Positions 8,657 through 21,636 of a stretch of 23,790 nt of DNA are shown here, piece after piece. The DNA is from a virus, in IMG/VR virus record IMGVR_UViG_3300023184_003422, positions 1 through 23,790 of that record; one strand, 5' to 3'. The position numbers and the translations under genes were made by a program. Numbering within the stretch: the first letter of the stretch is position 1; every line of letters starts with the position of its first letter. A model generated the notes under the pieces. That model was not told the origin of the DNA and did not search any database. It was given only the letters and a program-made list of their open reading frames with translations.

Positions 8657-10060
8657 ATGGTTTATTCGATTACCACTGGAATACATTACCCAAATTCAAA
8701 TTTGGAGAAATACAATATACACCCATGGTATATCCCAAATCAAGATACGAGATTTGAAATTGAAAAAAAATATGATATTAAATTTCCACACACATTAAGA
8801 AGAAAAGAAAGTGAAGATTTAAAAAATGAATTAAATATGTACTATTTTAATAGTTTTGAAAGACAATTAGATAATAGTGATAATTTTTTTATATCGGATA
8901 CGGTAGAAAATATAATAAAAAAAGATGTTCATTTTATTTACCCCGTAGTATTGTATAGTACTGATTTATTTAATAAATACGATACCATTACATTGCGTTC
9001 AGATGTGGTTGAAAAAGTTAAAGAAGGTAAAGCTAAAATTGTTTTTTCACTACTAACCGAGGGATATTTTGGGATTAATAAATTAGAATATCTTTGGATA
9101 TCAAACTTAGTTAAAAAATATGGATTTGATAAAAATCATGTTATTTTATTAACATCTAATTTAGTAATTGAAGAAAAGTATAGGGAATTTGTTAAAATTG
9201 GGTACATCGAAGATAACTATACGGTAATTCCATATTCATACTTTCAACATAATTTATGGTTTTTTAAGACCGGCAAGTTTTTGGTAGAAGAATTAAAACA
9301 ATTAATTAGAAATGAATTTGAAAAATCTATAGATAAAAATAGAACAATAAAAAAAGAAAAACATTTCCTTTGTTTTAATAGGATACCGAAACCTCACAGA
9401 TTATTAGTATTCGCAGAATTGATGACCAACTCTAACTTTAAAGATAAATTTATAACATCTTTAGGTGCGTCTACGGATAGTATTGTTAATGATTTTTATA
9501 ATAAAATAACGATTCATATTGGTGAGAATTATAAATACGGTAAAGATAAACTTTTAAATTTTTACAAAAATTATGACTCAACTATCCCACACATATTTGA
9601 CGAATCAGATTTAGAGAATAAGTTACCGATGATAAACTTAAACGCACAAAGAAAAACCTTTGTTAATATTGTAACAGAATCGTTAATTGAAGATTATTCA
9701 GTATTTTTTTCGGAAAAAACTTACAAACCAATTTTTTCTGCACAACCATTTATTATCATCGGTAACCCATTCTCACTTAAAAAATTAAAAGAAGATGGAT
9801 TTCAAACGTTCAGTAAATGGTGGGACGAAAGTTATGACAACGAAACAGATTTTACAAAACGTATGGGAATGATTATTGATTTAATGGAAGAAATTTCAAC
9901 TTGGGGTGAGGAGAAATGTTTTAATGTGACAAATGAAATGACTGAAGTTTTTAGAAATAATTTAGAGGTAATGATGGATACTAAAAGTATTAAACGAGTT
10001 TATAAAATTTTCTCGGAATTCGGTATTAATAATGTAAAATTTAATAATAAACTTATTTAA
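8657..10060 (+). CDS. Putative GT-B-like glycosyltransferase in a repeat-flanked cassette
   Basis: A 467-residue soluble protein, paralogous to the gene at 86-1441. Shared blocks are CFNRIPKPHRLLVFAEL (near residues 238-254) and a C-terminal VNIVTES...FFSEKTYKPIFSAQPFIII followed by GFQTFSKWWDESYDNETD (near 335-400). The EKTYKP-x6-PF-I-I pattern recalls the C-terminal donor site of GT10-type fucosyltransferases. A GDP-sugar donor would fit the neighbouring operon, but this is inference. The protein ends in NNKLI, the tail shared with the modification island more than 2.9 kb away, although none of its immediate neighbours has it. The gene lies between two exact 28-bp copies of the carbamoyltransferase 3' end, so it appears to be a later arrival. 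Start ATG 8657 has no Shine-Dalgarno motif. Confidence 0.62.
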   Translation: MVYSITTGIHYPNSNLEKYNIHPWYIPNQDTRFEIEKKYDIKFPHTLRRKESEDLKNELNMYYFNSFERQLDNSDNFFISDTVENIIKKDVHFIYPVVLYSTDLFNKYDTITLRSDVVEKVKEGKAKIVFSLLTEGYFGINKLEYLWISNLVKKYGFDKNHVILLTSNLVIEEKYREFVKIGYIEDNYTVIPYSYFQHNLWFFKTGKFLVEELKQLIRNEFEKSIDKNRTIKKEKHFLCFNRIPKPHRLLVFAELMTNSNFKDKFITSLGASTDSIVNDFYNKITIHIGENYKYGKDKLLNFYKNYDSTIPHIFDESDLENKLPMINLNAQRKTFVNIVTESLIEDYSVFFSEKTYKPIFSAQPFIIIGNPFSLKKLKEDGFQTFSKWWDESYDNETDFTKRMGMIIDLMEEISTWGEEKCFNVTNEMTEVFRNNLEVMMDTKSIKRVYKIFSEFGINNVKFNNKLI

Positions 10061-10259: not shown

Positions 10260-10700
10260 ATGTCAATATATTGGTTCACAGGACAACCCGCATCAGGTAA
10301 AACTACCTTAGCAAATAATCTTCTAACCCATTTTGGTAAGGAGAACACCATCATTATAGATGGTGACAATTTAAGGGATATCTTCCAAAATAAAGACTAT
10401 TCTGAGGTGGGAAGAAGAAAAAATATTGAAAGAGCACAAGACATCGCTCAATTTTTACATAAAAAGGGATTTACGGTGTTGGTGTCATTAGTTTCACCAT
10501 ATAAAGACCAAAGAGAGGACTTTAAGAAAAGAGAGGGAGGGGTTGTTGAGATTTATATTCATACGACAGAAGATAGGGGTAGAAATCAGTTTCATGTGGA
10601 GAATTATGAACCACCCACTGAAAACTTTATAGATTTGGATACAACGGATAAAACTGAAACGGATTCTTATTATGAAATATTAAAAAAATTAACACTATGA
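10260..10700 (+). CDS. cysC: Adenylylsulfate (APS) kinase
   Basis: A 146-residue P-loop kinase that phosphorylates APS to PAPS, the universal sulfuryl donor. Seen motifs are the Walker A GQPASGKTTL (residues 8-17), IIDGDNLRD, the helix YSEVGRRKNIERAQDIAQFL (APS contact region) and SLVSPYKDQRE. The usual PLEVCEKRD-PKGLYKKAR segment after the fifth strand is reduced here to TTEDRGRNQFHVENYEPP, so it is shorter than bacterial CysC (about 200 residues). Such compact forms are known in phages. The stop overlaps the next start (ATGA). Two sulfotransferase-like genes lie 4-9 kb downstream, so PAPS made here may feed sulfation. It ends KKLTL, only weakly like the shared tail. Confidence 0.85.
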   Translation: MSIYWFTGQPASGKTTLANNLLTHFGKENTIIIDGDNLRDIFQNKDYSEVGRRKNIERAQDIAQFLHKKGFTVLVSLVSPYKDQREDFKKREGGVVEIYIHTTEDRGRNQFHVENYEPPTENFIDLDTTDKTETDSYYEILKKLTL

Positions 10701-11322: not shown

Positions 11323-12813
11323 ATGAGAACAGTATTAATAGGTTCGGACTTTATGTACGATAAAGATGGTAATTTAAGACCCATCGAAATAAACACTGCG
11401 GTTGGTTGGGATGGACCGGAAAAAGTCGAGGACGATGTTGATTGTTTGGATTTATCAAGTTTAGATACATTTGTTAAATCTAATAACTTTACAACCATTC
11501 ATTACATTGGAGATTTGGGAGCCCTAAATTTAAAATTAAAAGATTATTGTACAGATAATTCAATTACATATGAGTGGCATGTGGTTACCGATACTGCAAT
11601 TACCGTTCCTTATATTGAGGACGGAGATTCTATTTTAATTATTAGAAGTGCATATGACACAACTGCATTAGTTGATGACCATTATTGTAGAGATAAAGTA
11701 AATTTTATGAATTTAATTAAAAATTCATCATTTGGTTCTCAGTTTGCATATAAAGATATGGCGATTAATAGTGTGGTATCAAATATAACTACAATAAATG
11801 ACAACAACGGTCACCCAAATTTTATATTAAAATCAAGATATCCAGGATATGATAAAGCTGTATATCCAAAATTATTTAAAGTATCAACTCAGTTAGAATT
11901 AGATACGGTAATTGCAAATAATGTTACTGAAGAATATTTCTTAATGGAATATTTGTGTAACACGGGTAAAACTTGGGACGGACATTTAACCGTAATAAGA
12001 AGTTTAAATATTTTAGTTCCACCAAATTTAGAATCAATTCAAATTGGTCAATATACAAAATTGAATCAAAATATGTTATTAGATAATGTAACATATAATT
12101 CGACATCATTTGAAGTAAATGAAGAATTTAAAGATAGTTATCACACAAATGCCGCAACACAAACACTACCTAAATTATTAGATACTGATTTAGTTGAAAT
12201 GGCGGACGGCTCGTTTAAATCGGCATTAGATTTACAAGTTGGTGACGTTATTAAAACAATTGAAATACCAAATGATAATGGTTCAAATTTAGATAGTTAT
12301 ATATCACAAACATTTGGACTTTCATATAGTGCTCTTACATCAACTGCAACATATTCTAGTAATACTGTTACACATAAAGGAAAAGTAAATGTCTTAACAT
12401 TTTTAAATGATATAACATTTGAAGATGGGGATACTTGGGAAGATACTATGGGGTCTAGATACTTAATAGAAAGAGCCGGTGTTGTAAAATTTGAACCATT
12501 GGCTACCACAATTGCAGGTGATATTGTTATATTATTAGATACAAGTAATACCGATATAACATTTGTAAGAAAAACGGTAGCAACAAATGTACAAAGAAAA
12601 AGAGTTTTTTCTGGATGGTACATCAGCGTAGAAAATGCAATGTTGTTTTTAACTAAAAATCCAAATTCATCAGTAACATCGTTTGTTTCGATAGAACATA
12701 ACACAATCTATTGTCCACCATATGCTTGTCCTCCTTGTACTACTAGTTGTTCAAGTTGTCCTAAAAATGCTAGGTATTGTCAGTGGACAGTATGTAGTCC
12801 ATATGTATGTTAA
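11323..12813 (+). CDS. Large ATP-grasp-like / Hint-like protein with a Cys-rich C-terminus
   Basis: A 496-residue protein in three parts. Residues 1-280 have GSDFMYDKDGNLRPIEINT (7-25), ILIIRSAYDT (104-113), FILKSRYPGYDKAVYP (167-182) and EEYFLMEYL. These resemble ATP-grasp elements, but the D-G...E-x-N block that is normally last comes first. Residues 282-460 look like a Hint (intein/hedgehog) domain: DTDLVEMADGSFKSALDLQVGDVIKT at the start, a GD strand near 400, and SIEHN (456-460) followed by Thr461 at the end. The usual first Cys is absent (Thr/Leu there) and the block-B His is not seen, so splicing is doubtful. Residues 464-496 hold eight Cys in CPPYACPPC-type spacing. It may be a virion structural or adhesin-like protein. 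It is followed by a 29-residue peptide and the modification island, and could be a substrate. No signal peptide. Confidence 0.6.
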   Translation: MRTVLIGSDFMYDKDGNLRPIEINTAVGWDGPEKVEDDVDCLDLSSLDTFVKSNNFTTIHYIGDLGALNLKLKDYCTDNSITYEWHVVTDTAITVPYIEDGDSILIIRSAYDTTALVDDHYCRDKVNFMNLIKNSSFGSQFAYKDMAINSVVSNITTINDNNGHPNFILKSRYPGYDKAVYPKLFKVSTQLELDTVIANNVTEEYFLMEYLCNTGKTWDGHLTVIRSLNILVPPNLESIQIGQYTKLNQNMLLDNVTYNSTSFEVNEEFKDSYHTNAATQTLPKLLDTDLVEMADGSFKSALDLQVGDVIKTIEIPNDNGSNLDSYISQTFGLSYSALTSTATYSSNTVTHKGKVNVLTFLNDITFEDGDTWEDTMGSRYLIERAGVVKFEPLATTIAGDIVILLDTSNTDITFVRKTVATNVQRKRVFSGWYISVENAMLFLTKNPNSSVTSFVSIEHNTIYCPPYACPPCTTSCSSCPKNARYCQWTVCSPYVC

Positions 12814-12976: not shown

Positions 12977-13507
12977 ATGATACACCTTATAAAAGGTATA
13001 TTAACAAAAGAGGAATGTGATAATCTTACAAAACAATTTGAAATTGATAAAAAGATTAACGCTTCTAGAGATAAAAAAGTCGATACTGGTAATACATACG
13101 ACTTTGAACCATCGCACATCTTCAACACATACTTAGATAAATTTAAATCATCAATATTAGATATTAATTCCGATATTGATGATTTAATAAATGTTAACAC
13201 TTGGATTAGAGAATATAAAAATAATGACTTTTTACGAAAACATATAGATAGAACGGATATTAGTGTTACAATATCAATATGTTTAGAATCAACAATAAAT
13301 AAAGAATGGTTTCTTTGTGCTGAAATAGACAACAAAGACTATTGCTTCAACACAGAAGTTGGAGACGGAATATTGCTATTTGATGCCGATAAAATTCCAC
13401 ATTGGAGAGATAAATTAATTTGTAATGAAAATGAAAGAGTATTACAATTTTTTTTACATTGGAAACCTGTTAACTATACCATTAAAAAAATAAAATCATT
13501 ATTATAA
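12977..13507 (+). CDS. Fe(II)/2-oxoglutarate-dependent oxygenase 1 (prolyl-4-hydroxylase-like)
   Basis: A 176-residue double-stranded beta-helix protein. The N-terminus GILTKEECDNLTKQ is the usual opening helix of phage prolyl-hydroxylase-like oxygenases. Fe ligands fit His89-x-Asp91 (RKHIDRTD) and His142 (KIPHWR); Arg154 (NERVLQFFLHW) would bind 2-oxoglutarate. The protein is small and single-domain, typical of phage versions whose targets are unknown. It ends KKIKSLL, an instance of the tail shared across this island. It is first of the tightly packed island and is preceded by a hairpin. Confidence 0.75.
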   Translation: MIHLIKGILTKEECDNLTKQFEIDKKINASRDKKVDTGNTYDFEPSHIFNTYLDKFKSSILDINSDIDDLINVNTWIREYKNNDFLRKHIDRTDISVTISICLESTINKEWFLCAEIDNKDYCFNTEVGDGILLFDADKIPHWRDKLICNENERVLQFFLHWKPVNYTIKKIKSLL

Positions 13508-13521
13508 AATAAAAATAAGTT

Positions 13522-14100
13522 ATGGCATTTACATACACAATTGAACCTAATTTTTTAACAAAAGATGAATGTGATACTATATTAAATTTTACATTAGAAA
13601 ATTTAAAATTAAAACCATCTGAGGTTATTGATAATTACATAGAAGTTACTAACCATAATTTAAGAAAGTCCAATCAAGTTTATTATCCATATTATAAAAA
13701 ATTTTCATTTTTATTAGAAAAAATTAGTAAATTATTGAACCAACACATTAGTGTGAAAGGATTTGATTTAGATTATGAACATAGCGAATTTCAATTTACA
13801 GAATATAATATAGGAGATCACTTTGATTGGCACAAGGATCAATATGGTGAGAAAATAACAAGTTGTGATAGATATTGTTCATTGGTTATACAATTAAATG
13901 ATGAATATGAGGATGGTAATTTACAAATAAAAAATGCGGAAAATGAACCATTAATGGTTGATAAAGGAACGGGTAATTTAATCCTATTTTTATCAAATAT
14001 TGAACATAAAGTACAACCGGTAAAAAGTGGAGTTAGATATACGTTAGTTAATTGGGTAAGACTAGTAGATAAAAAAAATTATAAAAAAACACTACTATAA
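13522..14100 (+). CDS. Fe(II)/2-oxoglutarate-dependent oxygenase 2 (PKHD/prolyl-hydroxylase-like)
   Basis: The clearest oxygenase of the group, 192 residues. It opens PNFLTKDECDTIL. GDHFDWHKDQYGE carries His104-x-Asp106 (His100-x-Asp102 is an adjacent alternative), followed by CSLVIQLND and YEDGNLQI, the conserved core strands. GNLILFLSNIEHKVQPVKSGVRYTLVNWV gives the distal His162 and the 2-oxoglutarate-binding Arg172. Known relatives hydroxylate Pro, Lys or Asp/Asn side chains in proteins. It ends NYKKTLL, the tail motif, with two CTA Leu codons. It lies 14 bases after gene 1 and one base before the next. Confidence 0.88.
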   Translation: MAFTYTIEPNFLTKDECDTILNFTLENLKLKPSEVIDNYIEVTNHNLRKSNQVYYPYYKKFSFLLEKISKLLNQHISVKGFDLDYEHSEFQFTEYNIGDHFDWHKDQYGEKITSCDRYCSLVIQLNDEYEDGNLQIKNAENEPLMVDKGTGNLILFLSNIEHKVQPVKSGVRYTLVNWVRLVDKKNYKKTLL

Positions 14101-14101
14101 T

Positions 14102-14704
14102 ATGAAAAAAATATATTTTGATGATACTACTTTTATTTGGAAAACAAAGTTAAATTTTTTAGAATATAAAAATGACATGTTAAATGAATGGTTAAAAATA
14201 GAAGAAAAAAATCAATATAATCCTAAAAATGACAATTATAACTATGAATTTACAAAAAACAAAAATAAATTGGATGATATTGTAAATTTATCTATAGATA
14301 AATGTAAGGAATTATATACAAAAAAATTTAACAATGTATTATTGGAATCTTGGGTTAATGTAATTAGGGCTAAAGAACCAAAACAACCAGGTTTATCTGA
14401 AGGAATTGTAAAAATGCATCAACATGATATAATAAGTAAAATACATGGATTTTTTATACCTGATTATACTTTTGTATATTACATTCAAATGCCAGATAAT
14501 TTAATAAATGATGACGGTGTATTATTTATCGAAGGAGAAAATAAAAAAATGTTCAATATATTACCAGAAGAAGATGATTTAATCATAATGGTTGGAGATT
14601 TACCACATGGACCAAACGTTGCTTTAAATTCAACTAAGGATAGGATTGTTTTGGCGGGTAATATTGGATTTGAATACAATAAAGGAAATAAAACATTATT
14701 ATAA
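14102..14704 (+). CDS. Fe(II)/2-oxoglutarate-dependent oxygenase 3 (phage 2OG-FeII_Oxy_5-like)
   Basis: A 200-residue protein of a second oxygenase subgroup, sharing VYYIQMPDNL-x-x-DDG-x-LF and ILP-x-E-x-D with the gene at 16352. Candidate iron ligands are His106 or His108-Asp109 (KMHQHDII) and His169 (DLPHGPN); Arg181 (KDRIVLAGN) would hold 2-oxoglutarate. WVNVIRAKEP precedes the metal site, as in T4-like phage oxygenases of the PF13759 type. Target unknown. It ends KGNKTLL. ATG lies one base after the upstream stop, implying translational coupling. Confidence 0.75.
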   Translation: MKKIYFDDTTFIWKTKLNFLEYKNDMLNEWLKIEEKNQYNPKNDNYNYEFTKNKNKLDDIVNLSIDKCKELYTKKFNNVLLESWVNVIRAKEPKQPGLSEGIVKMHQHDIISKIHGFFIPDYTFVYYIQMPDNLINDDGVLFIEGENKKMFNILPEEDDLIIMVGDLPHGPNVALNSTKDRIVLAGNIGFEYNKGNKTLL

Positions 14705-14710
14705 TATAAT

Positions 14711-15028
14711 ATGAAATTAGATTTTAAAGAAATCGCAACAGCTTGGTTTAATACAATTGTACATACAGATGAACAAAAAAAATTAGCCGATAAACGTTTA
14801 GAAGTTTGTTTTTCATGCCCTAAAAAGCAGGAAATAATTAATGGAACAAATTGGATGTTAAAATGTGGTGCGTGTGGATGTCCCCTAAAAGCAAAAGTTT
14901 ATACTAAAAAAACATTTTTAGATAAAAATGGTTCATGTCCATTAAGTAAATGGAAAGAAATTGAATCAGAATACCTTATTCAAACGGGAAAAATTCAAAA
15001 CCCTAAAAACAATAAAACAATATTGTAA
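14711..15028 (+). CDS. Cys-rich zinc-ribbon-like small protein with the shared tail
   Basis: A 105-residue protein. After a short N-terminal helix (FKEIATAWFNTI), Cys33-x2-Cys36, Cys52-x2-Cys55-x-Cys57 and Cys76-Pro form a six-Cys pattern (CFSC...CGACGCPL...CPLSKW) expected to bind zinc or possibly an Fe-S centre. Similar small Cys proteins occur in large phages without known function. It has no catalytic domain yet ends KNNKTIL, the tail shared with the enzymes around it. This argues that the tail marks membership of an assembly rather than one enzyme family. Confidence 0.75.
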   Translation: MKLDFKEIATAWFNTIVHTDEQKKLADKRLEVCFSCPKKQEIINGTNWMLKCGACGCPLKAKVYTKKTFLDKNGSCPLSKWKEIESEYLIQTGKIQNPKNNKTIL

Positions 15029-15030
15029 TT

Positions 15031-15726
15031 ATGTCTTATTTAATAAATGACGACCTTATTTGGGTTATGACAACTAAAACCGCTAGTTATTCAATTGAAG
15101 AGGCATTATTGAATTCAAATTTAAAACTAAGAAAATTTAATGAATATTTTAATAAAGATAAACATATTCATATACCGTTAAAAGGACTTTTAGATTATTT
15201 TGGTAATAAAGAAACTGTATGTATCACTAGAAATTGGTTTGATAAATGGTTAAGTGCAATGAATTTTATTTGGGATATTATTGAATATGACTCTAAGTTT
15301 GAACCAATATGTAAATGGGAAGATGTAAATAATGAATTTATTTATAACATATTTGATGATGATTTTATTAATAATTTACATTTTGAAACAATAGAGGGTA
15401 ATAAAAAATGTTTTTTAAGTTTCCTTAAAAATAAAGAAGAAAACATATCCGAAGCACCAAATTATTTGGAACTGATAGCTATAGTATGTACGTTAATTTC
15501 GGAAAATAATTGGAAAAGTAATAGAAAATGTACATATGAATTTGATATTAAAGAATTGGATAAATTTATTGATTTTATTGAAGATAGATTTGGTGAAAGA
15601 TTAGTTATAACAAATAAAAATAAATCATCAAAGAGATTAAATAAAATAATAATAAATGATGAGTTAAAATCTTTTGTTTGGGAAAAGTTTGAAAAAAAAT
15701 TTGAAAAAAGAAATCAACTGATTTAA
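15031..15726 (+). CDS. Sulfotransferase-like P-loop protein 1
   Basis: A 231-residue protein resembling sulfotransferases. The N-terminal strand and loop LIWVMTTKTASYSIEEALL (residues 9-27) fit the 5'-phosphosulfate loop (K-T-A-S-x-S). ETVCITRNWFDKWLSAMNF (near 60-78) fits the 3'-phosphate motif (R-x6-S). The C-terminal NKSSKRLNKIIINDELKSFVWEKFEKKF resembles the usual last helices. These enzymes move a sulfuryl group from PAPS to a hydroxyl or amine. The APS kinase at 10260 could supply PAPS. It ends KRNQLI, with CTG as the Leu codon, rare in this region. Its stop is directly followed by the 18-residue microprotein. Confidence 0.65.
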   Translation: MSYLINDDLIWVMTTKTASYSIEEALLNSNLKLRKFNEYFNKDKHIHIPLKGLLDYFGNKETVCITRNWFDKWLSAMNFIWDIIEYDSKFEPICKWEDVNNEFIYNIFDDDFINNLHFETIEGNKKCFLSFLKNKEENISEAPNYLELIAIVCTLISENNWKSNRKCTYEFDIKELDKFIDFIEDRFGERLVITNKNKSSKRLNKIIINDELKSFVWEKFEKKFEKRNQLI

Positions 15727-15783
15727 ATGAATAATGATATTTTAAAAAAATATTTACCTAAAAAAATAAGCTCATTAATATGA
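15727..15783 (+). CDS. 18-residue microprotein ending in the shared tail
   Basis: ATG begins on the first base after the upstream stop, and TGA overlaps the next ATG in ATGA, so the ORF fills the gap exactly. The product is MNNDILKKYLPKKISSLI: a basic amphipathic peptide whose last residues KKISSLI match the tail KKIKSLL of the first oxygenase. It could be a free copy of the tag, or the collapsed remnant of a larger tail-bearing gene. The perfect fit in the gene string and intact start and stop favour a translated ORF, but 18 codons may arise by chance. Confidence 0.45.
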   Translation: MNNDILKKYLPKKISSLI

Positions 15784-16340
15784 TAGAAATTATCGATGAA
15801 TTTTTAAATAAAACGGAAATTGATAAATTATATGATATATTATGGTCATCTGATTTATATTTGATTGGAATTGAAGATCACACAAGTAATAGAAATGATA
15901 GGAGATGGTCATTATCAAAACAAATTAAGAAGGAAGATAAAGACATTAATTTTTTTAGTGAAATTTTAGGTAAAATACTTAATTTACCAATATTAAATAA
16001 TCAATATGAATGTTATAGAAATATGATAAATGCTTATAAATATTCAGATGTACTTTCAATTCATGATGATGGAGTAATCAATGGATTTAATAATATTACT
16101 GCGTTGATATATGGTAATGATAATTGGGATGCAAATTGGGGTTCTGAAACTGTATTTTTTGATAAGAAATCAAGTGACGCGGAAATAATAAAAAGTATAT
16201 TACCAAAACCCGGAAGATTAGTTTTATTTGATGCCAATATTCCACATACAGGTAGAGTACCCAGCTCAATATTTCCAAATTATAGATATTCTTTAGTATA
16301 TAATCTAAAACTTAAAACACCTAAAAAAACATTACTTTAA
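15780..16340 (+). CDS. Fe(II)/2-oxoglutarate-dependent oxygenase 4
   Basis: A 186-residue oxygenase with the opening EFLNKTEIDKLYDILWSS. SIHDDGVINGFNNITALIYGN carries His95-x-Asp97. WGSETVFFD is the strand after the metal site. PGRLVLFDANIPHTGRVP gives distal His156, and FPNYRYSLVYNL gives Arg169. The core is typical of prolyl-hydroxylase-like enzymes acting on proteins or small molecules. It ends LKTPKKTLL (TTA CTT for the two Leu). Its start overlaps the microprotein stop. Confidence 0.8.
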   Translation: MIEIIDEFLNKTEIDKLYDILWSSDLYLIGIEDHTSNRNDRRWSLSKQIKKEDKDINFFSEILGKILNLPILNNQYECYRNMINAYKYSDVLSIHDDGVINGFNNITALIYGNDNWDANWGSETVFFDKKSSDAEIIKSILPKPGRLVLFDANIPHTGRVPSSIFPNYRYSLVYNLKLKTPKKTLL

Positions 16341-16351
16341 ATTAGTTTATT

Positions 16352-16951
16352 ATGAAGGAAATAAAAATAACAGATAAAATATCAATTTATAGCATTAAAA
16401 TTGAATATAATAAAGAACAAATATTGAAGGAGGCTAAATTAAATTTTGATGCTAATGCGCTTACAGCTGAATCAACACAAGAAACTCCTGGCATTCAATC
16501 TTCATTAATAATTAATGCTGATGAAATTGATAGAATAAGGGAAGTTGGATTGAAAATATTAGGTGAGGAATTAAAATGTAATATAAATAAACCATATTAT
16601 CACGACACTTGGTTATATAAAAGTGATAATAAAAATATATATGATGGGTATCATACACATAATTCACCTAATGGAACTAATTTAAAAAATGTAGAATGGA
16701 CATATACTTTTTATATACAAATGCCAGATAATTTAGAAGGTGATGATGGATATTTATTTTTTAAAACAAAAGATAACATTGAGTATAAAATTTTACCAAA
16801 TGAGGGAGATATGTTACTTTTTCCAGCATCATTGGCTCACACCGCAAAACCAAACACAAAATCAAAAATGGAAAGAATTGTATTAGCAAGTTCATTTAAA
16901 AGTTTAAATTTAAATAATAGTATTTTTAAAGAACAAAAAAGTTTAACTTAA
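16352..16951 (+). CDS. Fe(II)/2-oxoglutarate-dependent oxygenase 5 (phage 2OG-FeII_Oxy_5-like)
   Basis: A 199-residue paralogue of the 14102 gene: both have Y-x-IQMPDNL-x-x-DDG-x-LF and ILP-x-E-x-D followed by a His and an ERIVLA/DRIVLA strand. Metal ligands fit His101-x-His103 (GYHTHNS) and His163 (SLAHTAKP), with Arg175 for 2-oxoglutarate. The H-x-H form differs from the H-x-D of the other four and is seen in the PF13759 group. It ends KEQKSLT, a variant of the tail with Thr in last place. Eleven bases separate it from the next start. Confidence 0.75.
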   Translation: MKEIKITDKISIYSIKIEYNKEQILKEAKLNFDANALTAESTQETPGIQSSLIINADEIDRIREVGLKILGEELKCNINKPYYHDTWLYKSDNKNIYDGYHTHNSPNGTNLKNVEWTYTFYIQMPDNLEGDDGYLFFKTKDNIEYKILPNEGDMLLFPASLAHTAKPNTKSKMERIVLASSFKSLNLNNSIFKEQKSLT

Positions 16952-16962
16952 AATAGTTACAA

Positions 16963-18078
16963 TTGAATAAAAAAGTTAATATAAACTTTATAGATGGACC
17001 TTTTGTTGAAATAATAGAAGATACCACATTACATTATAATGTTGAATTTATTGATAGAGACACAAATAAAATTGTTTTTAATTTAGATTTAATAAGTAAT
17101 AAATGGGTTAGATGTGCCAAAAAATATTTTGTTAATTGGTTAATTAAAATAAAAGGATTGGATAATGATTTTTATTATGAATATGTTTTTGATTTAAATA
17201 AAAAAATAGTTCATATTGATTTAGAATCAAAAGGATTAGGGGACACTTTAGCTTGGATTGAATATGTGGAAAAATTTAGAATAGAAAAAAATTGTGAGGT
17301 AACTTGTTCCACATATTACAATGAGATTTTTGAAAAACAATATTCTAATATTAATTTTACTTTACCTAACTCAAATAAACCTGATGTATATGCTTTATAT
17401 AAATTAGGATTTTGGTATACTATTGATGGTAAAATAGATATAAATAGACACCGAATTAATCCTAAAGATTTACCGTTGATGAAAGTCGGTTCAGATATTT
17501 TAGGAATTAAATATGAAGAACTAAAACCAAGATTAGAGGAATTAGGAACAACCAAAAGAAAATTAGTTACAATTGGATTTCACGGAAAGGCACAATGTAA
17601 ATATTGGAATAATCCAACAGGTTGGCAAGAGGTCGTGGATTTTTTAAATACGGAAGGATATGAGGTTAGAGTGTTATCATATGAAGAAGATGGTTATATG
17701 GGTAATAAATTACCTAGTGGCATAACTAAACAACCAAACGGACCGTTAATCAAATTAATTGAGGTTTTACAAGAATCTGAATTATTTATTGGTATTAGTA
17801 GTGGTTTAAGTTGGTTATCTTGGGCGGCAGGAACCCCCACAATAATTATTTCAGGATTCACTGATGTTGATTTAGAACCTACTGATGGTGTAACAAGAAT
17901 AATCAATAAAAATGTATGTAATAGTTGTTGGTCAAAATATGATTTTGACCATAACAATTGGTATTGGTGTCCTGTTCATGCTGGCACCGAAAATAGATTT
18001 GAGTGTTCAAAATCGATAAGTGGTGAAGTAGTAATTGAAAATGTAAAAAAAATATTAAATAATAATAAAATATGGTAG
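16963..18078 (+). CDS. TibC-type (BAHT) iron-finger heptosyltransferase homologue, GT9-like
   Basis: A 371-residue GT-B glycosyltransferase. The N-terminal VNINFIDGPFVEI and strand-rich domain match the bacterial autotransporter heptosyltransferase (BAHT) family. HIDLESKGLGDTLAW (residues 85-99) is the GT9 acceptor-side loop, and FHGKAQCKYWNNPTGWQEVV and FIGISSGLSWLSWAAGTP are family signatures. Cys319-x2-Cys322, Cys336 and Cys348 match the four-Cys iron finger of TibC, which forms a dodecamer and heptosylates Ser residues from ADP-heptose. No ADP-heptose genes are in the window, so the donor may come from the host or differ. The start is TTG 16963: an upstream stop closes the frame and no ATG fits. 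It ends NNNKIW, at best a variant tail. It overlaps the next gene by 7 bases. Confidence 0.85.
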   Translation: MNKKVNINFIDGPFVEIIEDTTLHYNVEFIDRDTNKIVFNLDLISNKWVRCAKKYFVNWLIKIKGLDNDFYYEYVFDLNKKIVHIDLESKGLGDTLAWIEYVEKFRIEKNCEVTCSTYYNEIFEKQYSNINFTLPNSNKPDVYALYKLGFWYTIDGKIDINRHRINPKDLPLMKVGSDILGIKYEELKPRLEELGTTKRKLVTIGFHGKAQCKYWNNPTGWQEVVDFLNTEGYEVRVLSYEEDGYMGNKLPSGITKQPNGPLIKLIEVLQESELFIGISSGLSWLSWAAGTPTIIISGFTDVDLEPTDGVTRIINKNVCNSCWSKYDFDHNNWYWCPVHAGTENRFECSKSISGEVVIENVKKILNNNKIW

Positions 18079-19115
18079 ATTTAAAAAATTATACATGTAA
18101 CGTACCATTTACCTCATTAGAAGTACACAACAATGTTTGTTTTGTTTGTTGTCCATCATGGTTACCCAATAAAGTAGAACTTGGTGAAATTCCTCTAAAA
18201 GATGTTTACAATAGTGAACCAATTATTGATATTAGAAATTCTATATTAGATGGTTCATTTAAGTATTGTAATAAAGAGCTTTGTCCTTATTTAAGTAAAT
18301 TAATAAACTATGGTGTGACATCTGGTCCAGTCAGACTAAAATCAGATTCAAATATTAATAGTCCGATTGTAATAAATAATACACCCGATTATTTGGTAAT
18401 GAATTTTGATAGGACTTGTAATTACAAATGTCCTTCATGTAGAGTTGATTTAATTGTTGAAAATAGTGAAGGTATAAAACGTGTTGAAAAAACTATTGAA
18501 GATATTGATAAATATTATTCAAAACATGTTAGAACTTTATACATAACCGGTTCAGGAGATCCATTTGTTTCCGTTGGGTTTAGAAATTACTTAAGAAATT
18601 TTAATCCTAAAAAATACCCAAATTTAGCATCAATACATTTTCATACCAACGCATCAATGTGGAATAAAGAAATGTGGGATAGTATGCCGAACGTACATAA
18701 ATACGTTCATACTTGTGAAATCAGTATCGATGCAGGTACTAAAGACACTTACGAAAATAAAACGAGAATAGGGGGAAATTGGGAAAATTTACTTTCTAAT
18801 TTAAAATTTATCAGTACTTTACCACGTATGAATGTAAAAACATCATTTGTTGTTCAAGATTCCAACTATATGGAAATGGAAATATTTTATAATTTAATGT
18901 ATTCCATATTCGGCAAAAAGGTAAATGTGTTTTTTGGTAAAATAACTAATTGGGGAACATTTTCGGAAGGTGAATTTAAATTAAAACAAGTATGGGATAA
19001 GGAACATCCTGAACATCAACTATTTAAAAAAGAATTTAATAAGATATGGAAAAATAAATACCTTTTTCATAATTTATATGAGTTCATTGATACTACAAAT
19101 AAAACTTTAATTTAA
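18072..19115 (+). CDS. Radical SAM protein with an N-terminal SPASM-like Cys cluster
   Basis: A 347-residue radical SAM enzyme. Cys116-x3-Cys120-x2-Cys123 (RTCNYKCPSCR) binds the [4Fe-4S] cluster that cleaves S-adenosylmethionine. YITGSGDPF (GxGxP-type, near 157-165), IHFHTNAS and ISIDAGTKDTYE follow in barrel order. Before this, residues 9-79 hold Cys9, Cys23, Cys26, Cys27, Cys70 and Cys75 (NYTCNVPFTSLEV...CFVCC), which resembles a SPASM auxiliary-cluster domain, normally found at the C-terminus. Such enzymes modify peptides or proteins (thioether, C-C, epimer formation) or small molecules. It ends DTTNKTLI, the shared tail. The next ATG follows the stop at once. The substrate is unknown; the 29-residue peptide and Cys-rich protein nearby are candidates. 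Confidence 0.8.
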   Translation: MVDLKNYTCNVPFTSLEVHNNVCFVCCPSWLPNKVELGEIPLKDVYNSEPIIDIRNSILDGSFKYCNKELCPYLSKLINYGVTSGPVRLKSDSNINSPIVINNTPDYLVMNFDRTCNYKCPSCRVDLIVENSEGIKRVEKTIEDIDKYYSKHVRTLYITGSGDPFVSVGFRNYLRNFNPKKYPNLASIHFHTNASMWNKEMWDSMPNVHKYVHTCEISIDAGTKDTYENKTRIGGNWENLLSNLKFISTLPRMNVKTSFVVQDSNYMEMEIFYNLMYSIFGKKVNVFFGKITNWGTFSEGEFKLKQVWDKEHPEHQLFKKEFNKIWKNKYLFHNLYEFIDTTNKTLI

Positions 19116-19676
19116 ATGAAAATTTTAATATTGTCACATACAAGATGTGGTTCTACTACATTATGTAAATGGATATCAAAAGAATTAGATATTGAATTAG
19201 ATGAAACTCCATATGATAAAACTACATTTGAATCTATATTTAAAAAAACAAATATAATTAAAAAAATAGTTGTAGAGGAATATATACCATCAAATGAAAT
19301 TATAAATAAATTTGATAAAGTTATTTGTTTAAATAGAGAAAATACTATCGATACATCAATAAGTTTTATTATGGCAAATAATACTAACATTTGGCACGAT
19401 GCATATACGGTTTCATCCGATTGGATTTTAGAACATAAATTTGAAATAACCAATATGTCACATAGGTACGATGTTATGAAAAATAGTTTAAAAAAAATAA
19501 ATGGATTTCACATAACGTATGAAAATATGTATATTAATAAAACAGATGTTAATAGCGTTATTAGTTATTTAAACATTGAAAACCCAATACATTTGGATAT
19601 GATTGATTATGACAAAAAATATAGAAAAGATATATATACCTTAACATATGATATTAAAAGAAAAAATCTTATTTAG
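19116..19676 (+). CDS. Sulfotransferase-like P-loop protein 2
   Basis: A 186-residue protein. ILILSHTRCGSTTLCKWI (residues 3-20) is a good sulfotransferase 5'-phosphosulfate loop (R-x-G-S-T-x-L). KVICLNRENTIDTSISFIMA (68-87) fits the 3'-phosphate motif, with Arg and Ser properly spaced. The rest is short, as in phage and bacterial LPS-type sulfotransferases. It likely uses PAPS, perhaps from the APS kinase at 10260. The acceptor is unknown. It ends IKRKNLI (CTT ATT TAG), the shared tail. Its last 29 bases overlap the next gene in another frame, so the tail sequence is held under constraint in two frames here. Confidence 0.75.
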   Translation: MKILILSHTRCGSTTLCKWISKELDIELDETPYDKTTFESIFKKTNIIKKIVVEEYIPSNEIINKFDKVICLNRENTIDTSISFIMANNTNIWHDAYTVSSDWILEHKFEITNMSHRYDVMKNSLKKINGFHITYENMYINKTDVNSVISYLNIENPIHLDMIDYDKKYRKDIYTLTYDIKRKNLI

Positions 19677-20148
19677 TAAAGAGGAGTGTCAATCTATAAT
19701 ATCATATAACGACACCTATATTACAAATTGGGTAATGGATGATAGAAAATATAATTCACAACCAATTAATTATTCATTAGATACTAAATGGTTATTTGAT
19801 AAACTTAAAACATTTTTTGAAGAAGAATTAAACATACAAATAAAAAAAAATAAAGAAGTTATTCATTTTCATAAATTCATAAAAGGTGATTGGTTTGGAA
19901 GACACAATGATATTATAGAAAATAGATTATCTTCAGTGGGTGTTTTGTTAAACAATGATTTTGAAGGAGGTGATTTTAAATTATACAACCCAAATGAAAT
20001 TATATTAAATAAAGTTATTGGGAACACCTACATATTTGATGTAAAAATTAATCATGAAATAACACCTATTTTAAACGGAGAGAGATACTCATTACTTTGG
20101 TTTTTACAAAATGAGCATTTAGAAGTAAAAATTGATAAATTAATATGA
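19648..20148 (+). CDS. Fe(II)/2-oxoglutarate-dependent oxygenase 6
   Basis: A 166-residue oxygenase. It opens ILFSKEECQSIISYND. FGRHNDIIENRLSSVGVLLN provides His86-x-Asp88. FEGGDFKLY is the next core strand. FDVKINHEITPILNGERYSLLWFL gives distal His136 and Arg146. The start ATG 19648 lies 29 bases inside the upstream gene; it is kept because the family helix begins almost at once and no later start would retain it. It ends VKIDKLI (TTA ATA TGA), the shared tail, and overlaps the next gene in ATGA. Confidence 0.8.
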   Translation: MILKEKILFSKEECQSIISYNDTYITNWVMDDRKYNSQPINYSLDTKWLFDKLKTFFEEELNIQIKKNKEVIHFHKFIKGDWFGRHNDIIENRLSSVGVLLNNDFEGGDFKLYNPNEIILNKVIGNTYIFDVKINHEITPILNGERYSLLWFLQNEHLEVKIDKLI

Positions 20149-20822
20149 TAAGAATATATTACCATATTTACGCAATTGATGGGGTTGAGTCTATTATAGA
20201 AGAACAACTTTCTTTAATAAAAACTCATTTTAATTTTGAAAATATAATAAACATTGGGATATGTTTATCAGAAGAAAACATACCGATAGATAGTATTAAT
20301 AAATTAATAAACAAGTACAATAAATCAAATAAAATAGTTGTTTGTGATGTTAAAAATGAGTGTAATGAGTTTGTAACTTTAGACTTAATAGAAACACATA
20401 AACCAACATTTGATGACAATGATTTAATTTTTTACCTACATACTAAAGGGGCATCTAAACAAAACACCATTGATTATTTAGAAAGTGAAAGGTGGAGAAA
20501 TGTAATGCAATCATTCAATATTGAACATGTAAAAAACGTATTTGAAGTTTTAAAAAGTGAATCATATAATACGTATGGTGTTTTATTAGAAACCCTAAAA
20601 AATTCCAAAAATGTAATTTATTCCGGTAATTTTTGGTGGATGACTGGTGAATATGCTAAAACTATAAACATTAATGGGGTCGACAGAAATAGATGGAACG
20701 CAGAATTACAATATATTCAAAAGGGAAATGATTGGAAACCTTATTCATACTTTATAAAAAATAAAAATATGGTACCTTTAAAAAACAATAACACAAAATT
20801 TAGTTTTAACAAATTAGTATAA
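20145..20822 (+). CDS. HTKG-motif glycosyltransferase-like protein
   Basis: A 225-residue protein with IRIYYHIYAIDGVESIIEEQLSLI at the N-terminus, then LIFYLHTKGASKQN (near residues 93-106), ERWRNVMQSF and VIYSGNFWWMTGEYA (near 159-173). This combination (HTKG, WR-x-x-M, SGNFWW) is that of a widespread family in phages, giant viruses and bacterial glycan clusters usually annotated as glycosyltransferase-like. Donor and acceptor are unknown. It ends SFNKLV, a tail variant with Val. The start overlaps the upstream stop. Confidence 0.6.
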   Translation: MIRIYYHIYAIDGVESIIEEQLSLIKTHFNFENIINIGICLSEENIPIDSINKLINKYNKSNKIVVCDVKNECNEFVTLDLIETHKPTFDDNDLIFYLHTKGASKQNTIDYLESERWRNVMQSFNIEHVKNVFEVLKSESYNTYGVLLETLKNSKNVIYSGNFWWMTGEYAKTININGVDRNRWNAELQYIQKGNDWKPYSYFIKNKNMVPLKNNNTKFSFNKLV

Positions 20823-20832
20823 TTATAAAAAT

Positions 20833-21636
20833 ATGAACCCATTAAGATATTGGACGTTGGATGGATTTGAAATATCTTCATTTAAATTTAATTTGAATGG
20901 AAGAAAGGGAAAAACATATAAAACATCTGGTTCCGATAACACAGGGTTGTGTACATATACATACAATGAATTAGGATTTAGAGGAGATAGTTTAAAAAAA
21001 GAGGGGTTTAAAGTGATGTCATTGGGTTGTTCACATACCGAAGGTGTTGGAGTCAATTACAACGATACTTGGCCAACGCAATTTACAAATCTCATACCTA
21101 ATGGTGTTAATATGAATTTTGGTACGGGTGGTAGAAGTAACGATTTTATTGTTAGATGTCTATTAACATATTACGATGTAATAAAACCAGATTTAGTATT
21201 AGTTATGTACTCATCACCATTAAGAAGAGAAATATATACAAAAGATGGTAATATAGAACCATTTATCCCAACCCATTCATGGGGATATATGGATGAGACT
21301 GAATACGGTAAACAAATACAAAGTTATTTAACTGAATTACAAAATGATAATGAAGATTTAATTAATTGGTATAAAAATCACCAATTAGTAAAATTATTCT
21401 TAGAATCTAAAAATTGTAATTGGATTTGGAATGGGGCTTTTGGTATACCAAGTGAATTTAAAGAACCTAATAGATTTGATGGTCAATATCAAATTTTTAT
21501 CGATAAGGGTGTTGAAGGAGGTCATGCTGGTCCAAAACAAAATAAAAGTTATGCAAATAAATTACATGATTTCATAAATAAAAACTTCTCAAATTACTTA
21601 AATGGTTTATCAAAAAATAAACAAAATTTGATTTGA
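20833..21636 (+). CDS. SGNH/GDSL-family hydrolase (phage surface-glycan type)
   Basis: A 267-residue SGNH superfamily protein. YNELGFRGDSL leads into MSLGCSHTEGVGV (block I, nucleophile Ser67). NFGTGGRSNDFIVR contains Gly/Asn of blocks II-III. PDLVLVMYSSPLRRE is the following strand. GGHAGPKQNKSYANKL near residues 229-244 supplies the catalytic His231. Relatives act as glycan O-acyl hydrolases or transferases. It ends KNKQNLI (TTG ATT TGA), the shared tail, and is the last gene of the island. The -35 box of the next promoter overlaps its stop. Confidence 0.78.
   Translation: MNPLRYWTLDGFEISSFKFNLNGRKGKTYKTSGSDNTGLCTYTYNELGFRGDSLKKEGFKVMSLGCSHTEGVGVNYNDTWPTQFTNLIPNGVNMNFGTGGRSNDFIVRCLLTYYDVIKPDLVLVMYSSPLRREIYTKDGNIEPFIPTHSWGYMDETEYGKQIQSYLTELQNDNEDLINWYKNHQLVKLFLESKNCNWIWNGAFGIPSEFKEPNRFDGQYQIFIDKGVEGGHAGPKQNKSYANKLHDFINKNFSNYLNGLSKNKQNLI

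Follow-up and report, generated by a model that had tools for sequence, protein, structure and literature searches.

A common C-terminal tail on unrelated modifying enzymes of freshwater giant phages accompanies the gene of an ATP-grasp and Hint domain protein with a cysteine-rich end

Virus record IMGVR_UViG_3300023184_003422, all 23,790 bases of which were analysed (the window), carries a series of genes for unrelated modifying enzymes whose products end in the same few residues. This C-terminal tail is real, is selected as a peptide and occurs far above chance, and in related viruses it is tied to one untailed gene, located at 11323-12813 in the window, whose product (the hub) joins an ATP-grasp domain, a Hint domain and a fast-evolving cysteine-rich end. 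The explanation that fits best, and probably the correct one, is that the tail is a docking tag and the hub a self-cleaving precursor; our best reading of the locus is a pathway by which phages make modified ribosomal peptides.

In gene order, the products encoded between 12977 and 21636 end in KSLL, KTLL, KTLL, KTIL, NQLI, KTLL, KSLT, NKIW, KTLI, KNLI, DKLI, NKLV and QNLI, of which KSLT and NKIW are off-consensus; this list is identical to that of the original prediction, made from the letters of the window alone. As also described there, the leucine codons of the tails vary (TTA, CTA, CTT, TTG and CTG), one tail is read in a second frame (the start of gene 19648 falls within the tail codons of gene 19116), and an 18-amino-acid (aa) open reading frame (ORF) at 15727 ends in SSLI. 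An additional tailed gene, at 8657-10060, lies beyond the range covered at that time. The tail-only ORF was considered as a decoy, an idea that was dropped because short intergenic ORFs with such an end are too rare to support it (7/452, some of them gene remnants). The tailed genes, the 18-aa ORF and one untailed neighbour, the adenosine 5'-phosphosulfate (APS) kinase, are listed below (2OG, 2-oxoglutarate; SAM, S-adenosylmethionine).

8657..10060 (+): putative 467-aa enzyme, tail ..NNKLI; family 72% tailed
10260..10700 (+): APS kinase, untailed; PF01583, 1.7e-18; family 0/26 tailed
12977..13507 (+): 2OG-oxygenase-like enzyme, tail ..IKSLL; phrog_2954, 5.8e-18 (annotated ferrochelatase); family 93% tailed
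13522..14100 (+): 2OG-Fe(II) oxygenase, tail ..KKTLL; PF13640, 9e-14
14102..14704 (+): 2OG-Fe(II) oxygenase, tail ..NKTLL; phrog_81, 1e-9; family 90% tailed
14711..15028 (+): small zinc-ribbon protein, tail ..NKTIL; conserved Cys pairs; present at 82/88 loci, 94% tailed
15031..15726 (+): sulfotransferase, tail ..RNQLI; PDB profile match to heparan sulfate 2-O-sulfotransferase, 1.6e-3; top folds nearly all sulfotransferases, at weak E values
15727..15783 (+): 18-aa ORF, little beyond a tail (MNNDILKKYLPKKISSLI), end ..KISSLI
15780..16340 (+): 2OG-Fe(II) oxygenase, tail ..KKTLL; PF13640, 4e-9
16352..16951 (+): 2OG-Fe(II) oxygenase, off-consensus tail ..KSLT; PF13640, 7e-6
16963..18078 (+): glycosyltransferase family 9, end ..NKIW (poor tail); PF01075, 1e-6
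18072..19115 (+): radical SAM enzyme, tail ..NKTLI; PF04055, 9e-7; 80 related loci; 90% tailed
19116..19676 (+): sulfotransferase, tail ..RKNLI; PF09037 weak; NodH profile match, 2e-3
19648..20148 (+): 2OG-Fe(II) oxygenase, tail ..IDKLI; PF13640, 2e-5
20145..20822 (+): possible glycosyltransferase (by eye), tail ..FNKLV; no Pfam match; 7/7 relatives tailed
20833..21636 (+): SGNH-type esterase (motif by eye), tail ..KQNLI; no Pfam match; family 66% tailed

Relatives were collected with the radical SAM gene as query, which returned 80 related viral loci (50-93% identical), including a 335-kb record (G001), and by a scan with a hub profile, which returned 271; seven long relative records were fetched, and genes were called with our own codon-score ORF caller rather than Prodigal. 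The hub-bearing viruses are giant phages of fresh water and form an uncultured group. The tail follows the consensus K-[TSKN]-[LI]-[ILVF]-COOH, the third-last residue being T (37%), S (21%), K (20%) or N (10%); information content falls from 2.3-2.8 bits at the final two residues to 1.3-1.5 at the pair before them and about 0.2 at positions -8 to -12. The large gene families of 88 non-redundant loci fall mostly into two classes, one tailed at 88-100% (2OG oxygenases, two sulfotransferase families, zinc ribbon, radical SAM and tryptophan halogenase) and one at 0% (APS kinase, nucleotidyltransferase, carbamoyltransferase and DUF2061), and few are intermediate. The claim of a tag common to macromolecule-modifying enzymes and absent from small-molecule enzymes is thus borne out and extends to relatives, and loss of the tail among close homologues, which had been named as grounds for abandoning it if random, is not random. 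In a structural model of the sulfotransferase at 15031..15726 the last four residues are the sole segment with a pLDDT below 50, i.e. an unstructured tail.

A by-product of AT-rich composition, of translation coupling or of a DNA or RNA signal at the stop codon is hardly conceivable as the source of the tail. The genome does have 31% G+C and A-rich start regions, but codons differ at every tail position, tail frequency stays at.88-.92 whether the next gene overlaps, is close or is distant, and untailed families in the same operons stay at 0%. The varied codons and the independence of spacing also rule out a ribosome-binding site, a terminator or a promoter overlying the stop codons, and uphold the view that selection acts on the peptide.

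The tail is tied to the hub gene. In G001, tails occur on 11/23 genes up to 10 kb from the locus versus 18/361 beyond 25 kb (Fisher p = 5e-8), and the corresponding counts are 10/22 versus 7/162 (p = 8e-7) in G002 and 8/18 versus 10/170 (p = 3e-5) in G003; a genome-wide count, which had been proposed as a possible refutation, shows the tails concentrated at the locus in long relatives, on about half of the nearby genes and about 5% of the distant ones. Around the hub in 62 non-redundant loci, 66-79% of the genes at +1 to +5 are tailed, versus 4-7% at -7 and -8 and 11% at +14. Within the same families of the same long records, tails were found in 55/68 genes within 8 kb of the hub versus 7/24 beyond 30 kb (p = 8e-6). 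Zinc-ribbon homologues are tailed in 61/69 cases when the hub is present; those without a hub, and an untailed paralogue, have no tail in what is a small unlinked sample. The search of a bacterial genome collection yielded no homologue of the hub gene or the radical SAM enzyme, so that a bacterial tail control was not available and marine phage homologues were used instead: 2OG enzymes and halogenases of marine phages, which have no detectable hub, are untailed. Among cultured phages no relatives of the hub, the radical SAM enzyme or the zinc ribbon were found.

Tailed modules surround the hub in differing genomic positions. A 211-kb record (L170, L191) holds two hub copies in different neighbourhoods, one of them among housekeeping genes and followed by just two tailed genes (zinc ribbon and sulfotransferase-type). 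The hub family is present at nearly all loci, and the records found with the radical SAM query that have no hub are all short or incomplete contigs. Alternatively, a host or phage protease might read the tail as a signal for degradation or stability, as hydrophobic C-termini are known to be read by Tsp/Prc and ClpXP. We regard this as very improbable, since the tail is confined to one island and to families (a 95-aa zinc ribbon among them) beside one protein, and there is no LAA-type end.

The hub was modelled with AlphaFold2 from 16 sequences; the model has an N-terminal ATP-grasp domain followed by a Hint domain, with disorder from residue 462. Its parts are given below (BIL, bacterial intein-like).

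11323..12813 (+): hub or precursor protein, untailed, 496 aa, with ATP-grasp, BIL/Hint and Cys-rich C-terminal peptide; AlphaFold2 pLDDT 82; Foldseek; family 0% tailed (n=62)
11323..12150 (+): ATP-grasp (glutathione-synthetase-like) domain, E22/N24/K170/R226 invariant; from invariant columns and fold search
12169..12702 (+): Hint/BIL domain without Cys at position 1 and without block-B His, ending in His459-Asn460
12697..12702 (+): invariant His-Asn, with predicted cleavage point after Asn460; 62/62 non-redundant relatives
12703..12810 (+): Cys-rich peptide TIYCPPYACPPCTTSCSSCPKNARYCQWTVCSPYVC, predicted released core; disordered in the model (pLDDT ~35); faster evolution

Foldseek matched the hub model to BIL2 (6y75, 2e-7) and to yeast glutathione synthase (1m0t, 1.7e-4); the structural matches of the Hint domain comprise BIL2 of T. 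thermophila, a C. thermocellum BIL and inteins, and sequence profiles also support this domain. E22, N24, K170 and R226 of the ATP-grasp domain, which looks active, are invariant across 16 diverse members, as is His459-Asn460. Splicing inteins have an N-terminal Cys and a block-B His that are absent from the Cys-rich hub types, so only C-terminal cleavage would be expected, and autocleavage is predicted after Asn460. The peptide that follows the His-Asn averages 35 residues and 6.7 Cys (19% Cys versus 0.5% upstream) and is enriched in Pro, Tyr, Trp and Gly. It diverges faster than the rest of the protein, with 61% identity (53% at its non-Cys sites) versus 81% upstream. In some hubs (L257:6338-8290, L214, L215, L253 and L269) it lies between a pair of Hint domains, as expected for an excised product; the second of the pair has an N-terminal Cys. 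Directly after the hub in Trp-rich types there is a 45-50-aa protein, never tailed, that ends in ..IKVKHLGE (L263:7880-8023 and 23 other loci).

The most likely shared partner of the tails is the untailed hub itself. The tail would then act as an address tag: a short linear motif (SLiM) at the C-terminus, borne by a flexible linker rich in Lys and Asn, through which a variable set of maturation enzymes is docked on one common partner. The ATP-grasp domain may bind the free C-termini of the tails and so hold oxygenases, sulfotransferases and the radical SAM enzyme (joined in other phages by a tryptophan halogenase) beside the hub's C-terminal Cys-rich peptide; the Hint domain would then cleave after His-Asn and free the modified peptide. 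An alternative is that the tail is a ligase substrate, its C-terminal carboxylate being activated by the ATP-grasp domain and joined to an amine, e.g. the new N-terminus of the released peptide. Glutathione synthetase joins activated carboxylates of small peptides to an amine, and the invariant catalytic residues, the tail's invariable position at the extreme C-terminus and the action of the hub's fold relatives on peptide carboxylates agree with such a role. It is nevertheless quite improbable, as there is no reason for conjugating a dozen different enzymes, and the tails sit on catalysts rather than on inert carriers.

The chemistry that docking would bring to the peptide is that of the tailed families: 2OG oxygenases, two sulfotransferase families, radical SAM and zinc ribbon, with a tryptophan halogenase (PF04820, 1.9e-87) in Trp-rich peptide types, for example the tailed L259:2779-4017, which ends in KHKNKLI. 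The untailed APS kinase, encoded alongside the sulfotransferases, would provide the sulfate donor 3'-phosphoadenosine 5'-phosphosulfate. A subgroup of 2OG oxygenases inside the islands ends in ..YALNFWFH and has no tail (L001:5446-5916 and similar).

Several observations weigh against docking on the hub and modification of its peptide. In G006 (L134:12913-15651), G007 and close relatives the hub has tandem Hint domains a few residues apart and no Cys-rich peptide, and tailed enzymes are still around it, so the peptide is not the sole substrate there. A few tailed sulfotransferase homologues lie 50-260 kb from the hub (G001:20907, G001:334651 and G003:162687), and the sulfotransferase assignments are weak singly, if consistent together. 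Trp occurs in 22/22 unique peptides at halogenase loci (mean 3.1) versus 53% of 64 without halogenase (mean 1.2), an association confounded by clade. A locus-specific tail dialect, considered as a sign of co-evolution, proved weak and restricted to the last residue (.549 vs.507, p =.003). The majority of loci, moreover, were recovered with queries from the window locus.

A different partner is also possible, if rather unlikely: the tail may bring the enzymes to, for example, a tail fibre, a virion protein that carries glycans or a compartment within the cell, the hub being just another member of the island. The tandem-Hint loci agree with this, and so does G001, in which the tails are concentrated at ~257-292 kb, directly downstream of giant tail-fibre-like genes. 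Two hubs (L282:6324-8018 and L286:7181-8926) have a segment that by eye resembles the S74-type chaperone of tail fibres and has no Pfam match at 0.01; this had seemed to replace the Cys-rich peptide, but the full sequence shows the peptide retained, with the domain after it. Conversely, the tail accompanies the hub gene into non-structural neighbourhoods, and the hub is the only untailed family found at most loci. For a virion protein, a membrane or a protease as the partner there is little or no evidence.

The original prediction had also pointed to PDZ domains and encapsulins. Its shared tag on modifying enzymes stands, and these two partners are not supported; in seeking one partner it had overlooked the likeliest, the hub. 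PDZ_6/PDZ_2 domains (PF17820 and PF13180) were found in 0/5 relative records, with positive controls, in a search confined to these phage records, which may be incomplete. The tails do not conform to class I PDZ ligands (S/T third-last and a hydrophobic last residue), as 42% are without S/T at the required place. The encapsulin shell (PF04454) was likewise found in 0/5 relative records. Encapsulin targeting peptides resemble the tails in being short C-terminal peptides with hydrophobic anchors that gather enzymes at one partner (PMC7925596); the phage tails, however, have no GSL motif.

The closest parallels come from natural-product pathways. Docking in non-ribosomal peptide and polyketide synthetases (NRPS/PKS) uses a C-terminal SLiM and a beta-hairpin docking domain; in these, as proposed for the phage tail, a short disordered motif binds only by its last few residues and brings different enzymes, including halogenases, into the pathway (PMC9113145). 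The phage tag, by contrast, is phage-encoded and sits on a dozen unrelated stand-alone enzymes, and no docking domain was recognised. No NRPS/PKS synthetase was noticed in the loci read, in which no search aimed at synthetases was made. As in pathways for ribosomally synthesized and post-translationally modified peptides (RiPPs), among them graspetides (ATP-grasp) and sactipeptides (radical SAM), a ribosomal precursor with a variable core is encoded beside modifying enzymes, here radical SAM, oxygenase, sulfotransferase, halogenase and ATP-grasp. Unlike those, the phage precursor itself carries ATP-grasp and Hint domains, recruitment apparently proceeds via the enzymes' C-termini, and a PqqD-like RiPP recognition element (PF05402) was found in 0/5 relative records. 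Such elements are common, not universal, in RiPP enzymes. The Hint fold, the conserved C-terminal His-Asn and the hypervariable flank of the hub are those of A-type BIL domains (PMC7765530), but its Hint domain is fused to an active-looking ATP-grasp domain and a Cys-rich peptide, with modifying enzymes around. Cyanophages and Pelagibacter phage HTVC008M encode the same enzyme classes (2OG oxygenases and tryptophan halogenases) in aquatic phages; those enzymes, however, are untailed and without a detectable ATP-grasp-Hint gene. No description of such a system was found in the open-licence literature.

Other features were seen in the 335-kb phage. In G001 (L081-L097) a Shine-Dalgarno sequence lies upstream of 8/307 genes, equal to shuffled sequence, and the start regions are A-rich as in Bacteroidota, a suggestion only as to the host. 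The phage encodes a transfer-messenger RNA (tag ATSTVAVA; L085:6275-6679) and four tRNAs. A second shared C-terminus, ..KSRFGL, occurs on paralogous proteins after the tail fibres (G001:245428-250000), and another, ..NETI, on small adjoining proteins (G001:12390-14034).

These results suggest a previously undescribed viral assembly line for heavily modified peptides. It is quite possible, if somewhat short of probable, that giant phages carry a modular ribosomal-peptide factory in which a universal tag plugs any newly gained enzyme (hydroxylase, sulfotransferase, halogenase or radical SAM) into one self-cleaving ATP-grasp-Hint carrier, and from which hypervariable, heavily modified Cys-rich peptides would be released during infection. 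If true, this would be a new class of virus-encoded peptide biosynthesis, in which a portable end-tag makes one assembly line of unrelated enzymes; the reason why 2OG oxygenases, sulfotransferases and halogenases are so abundant in aquatic phages would become directly testable, pathway engineering would gain a new tag in the tail, and the loci would be a source of novel modified peptides.

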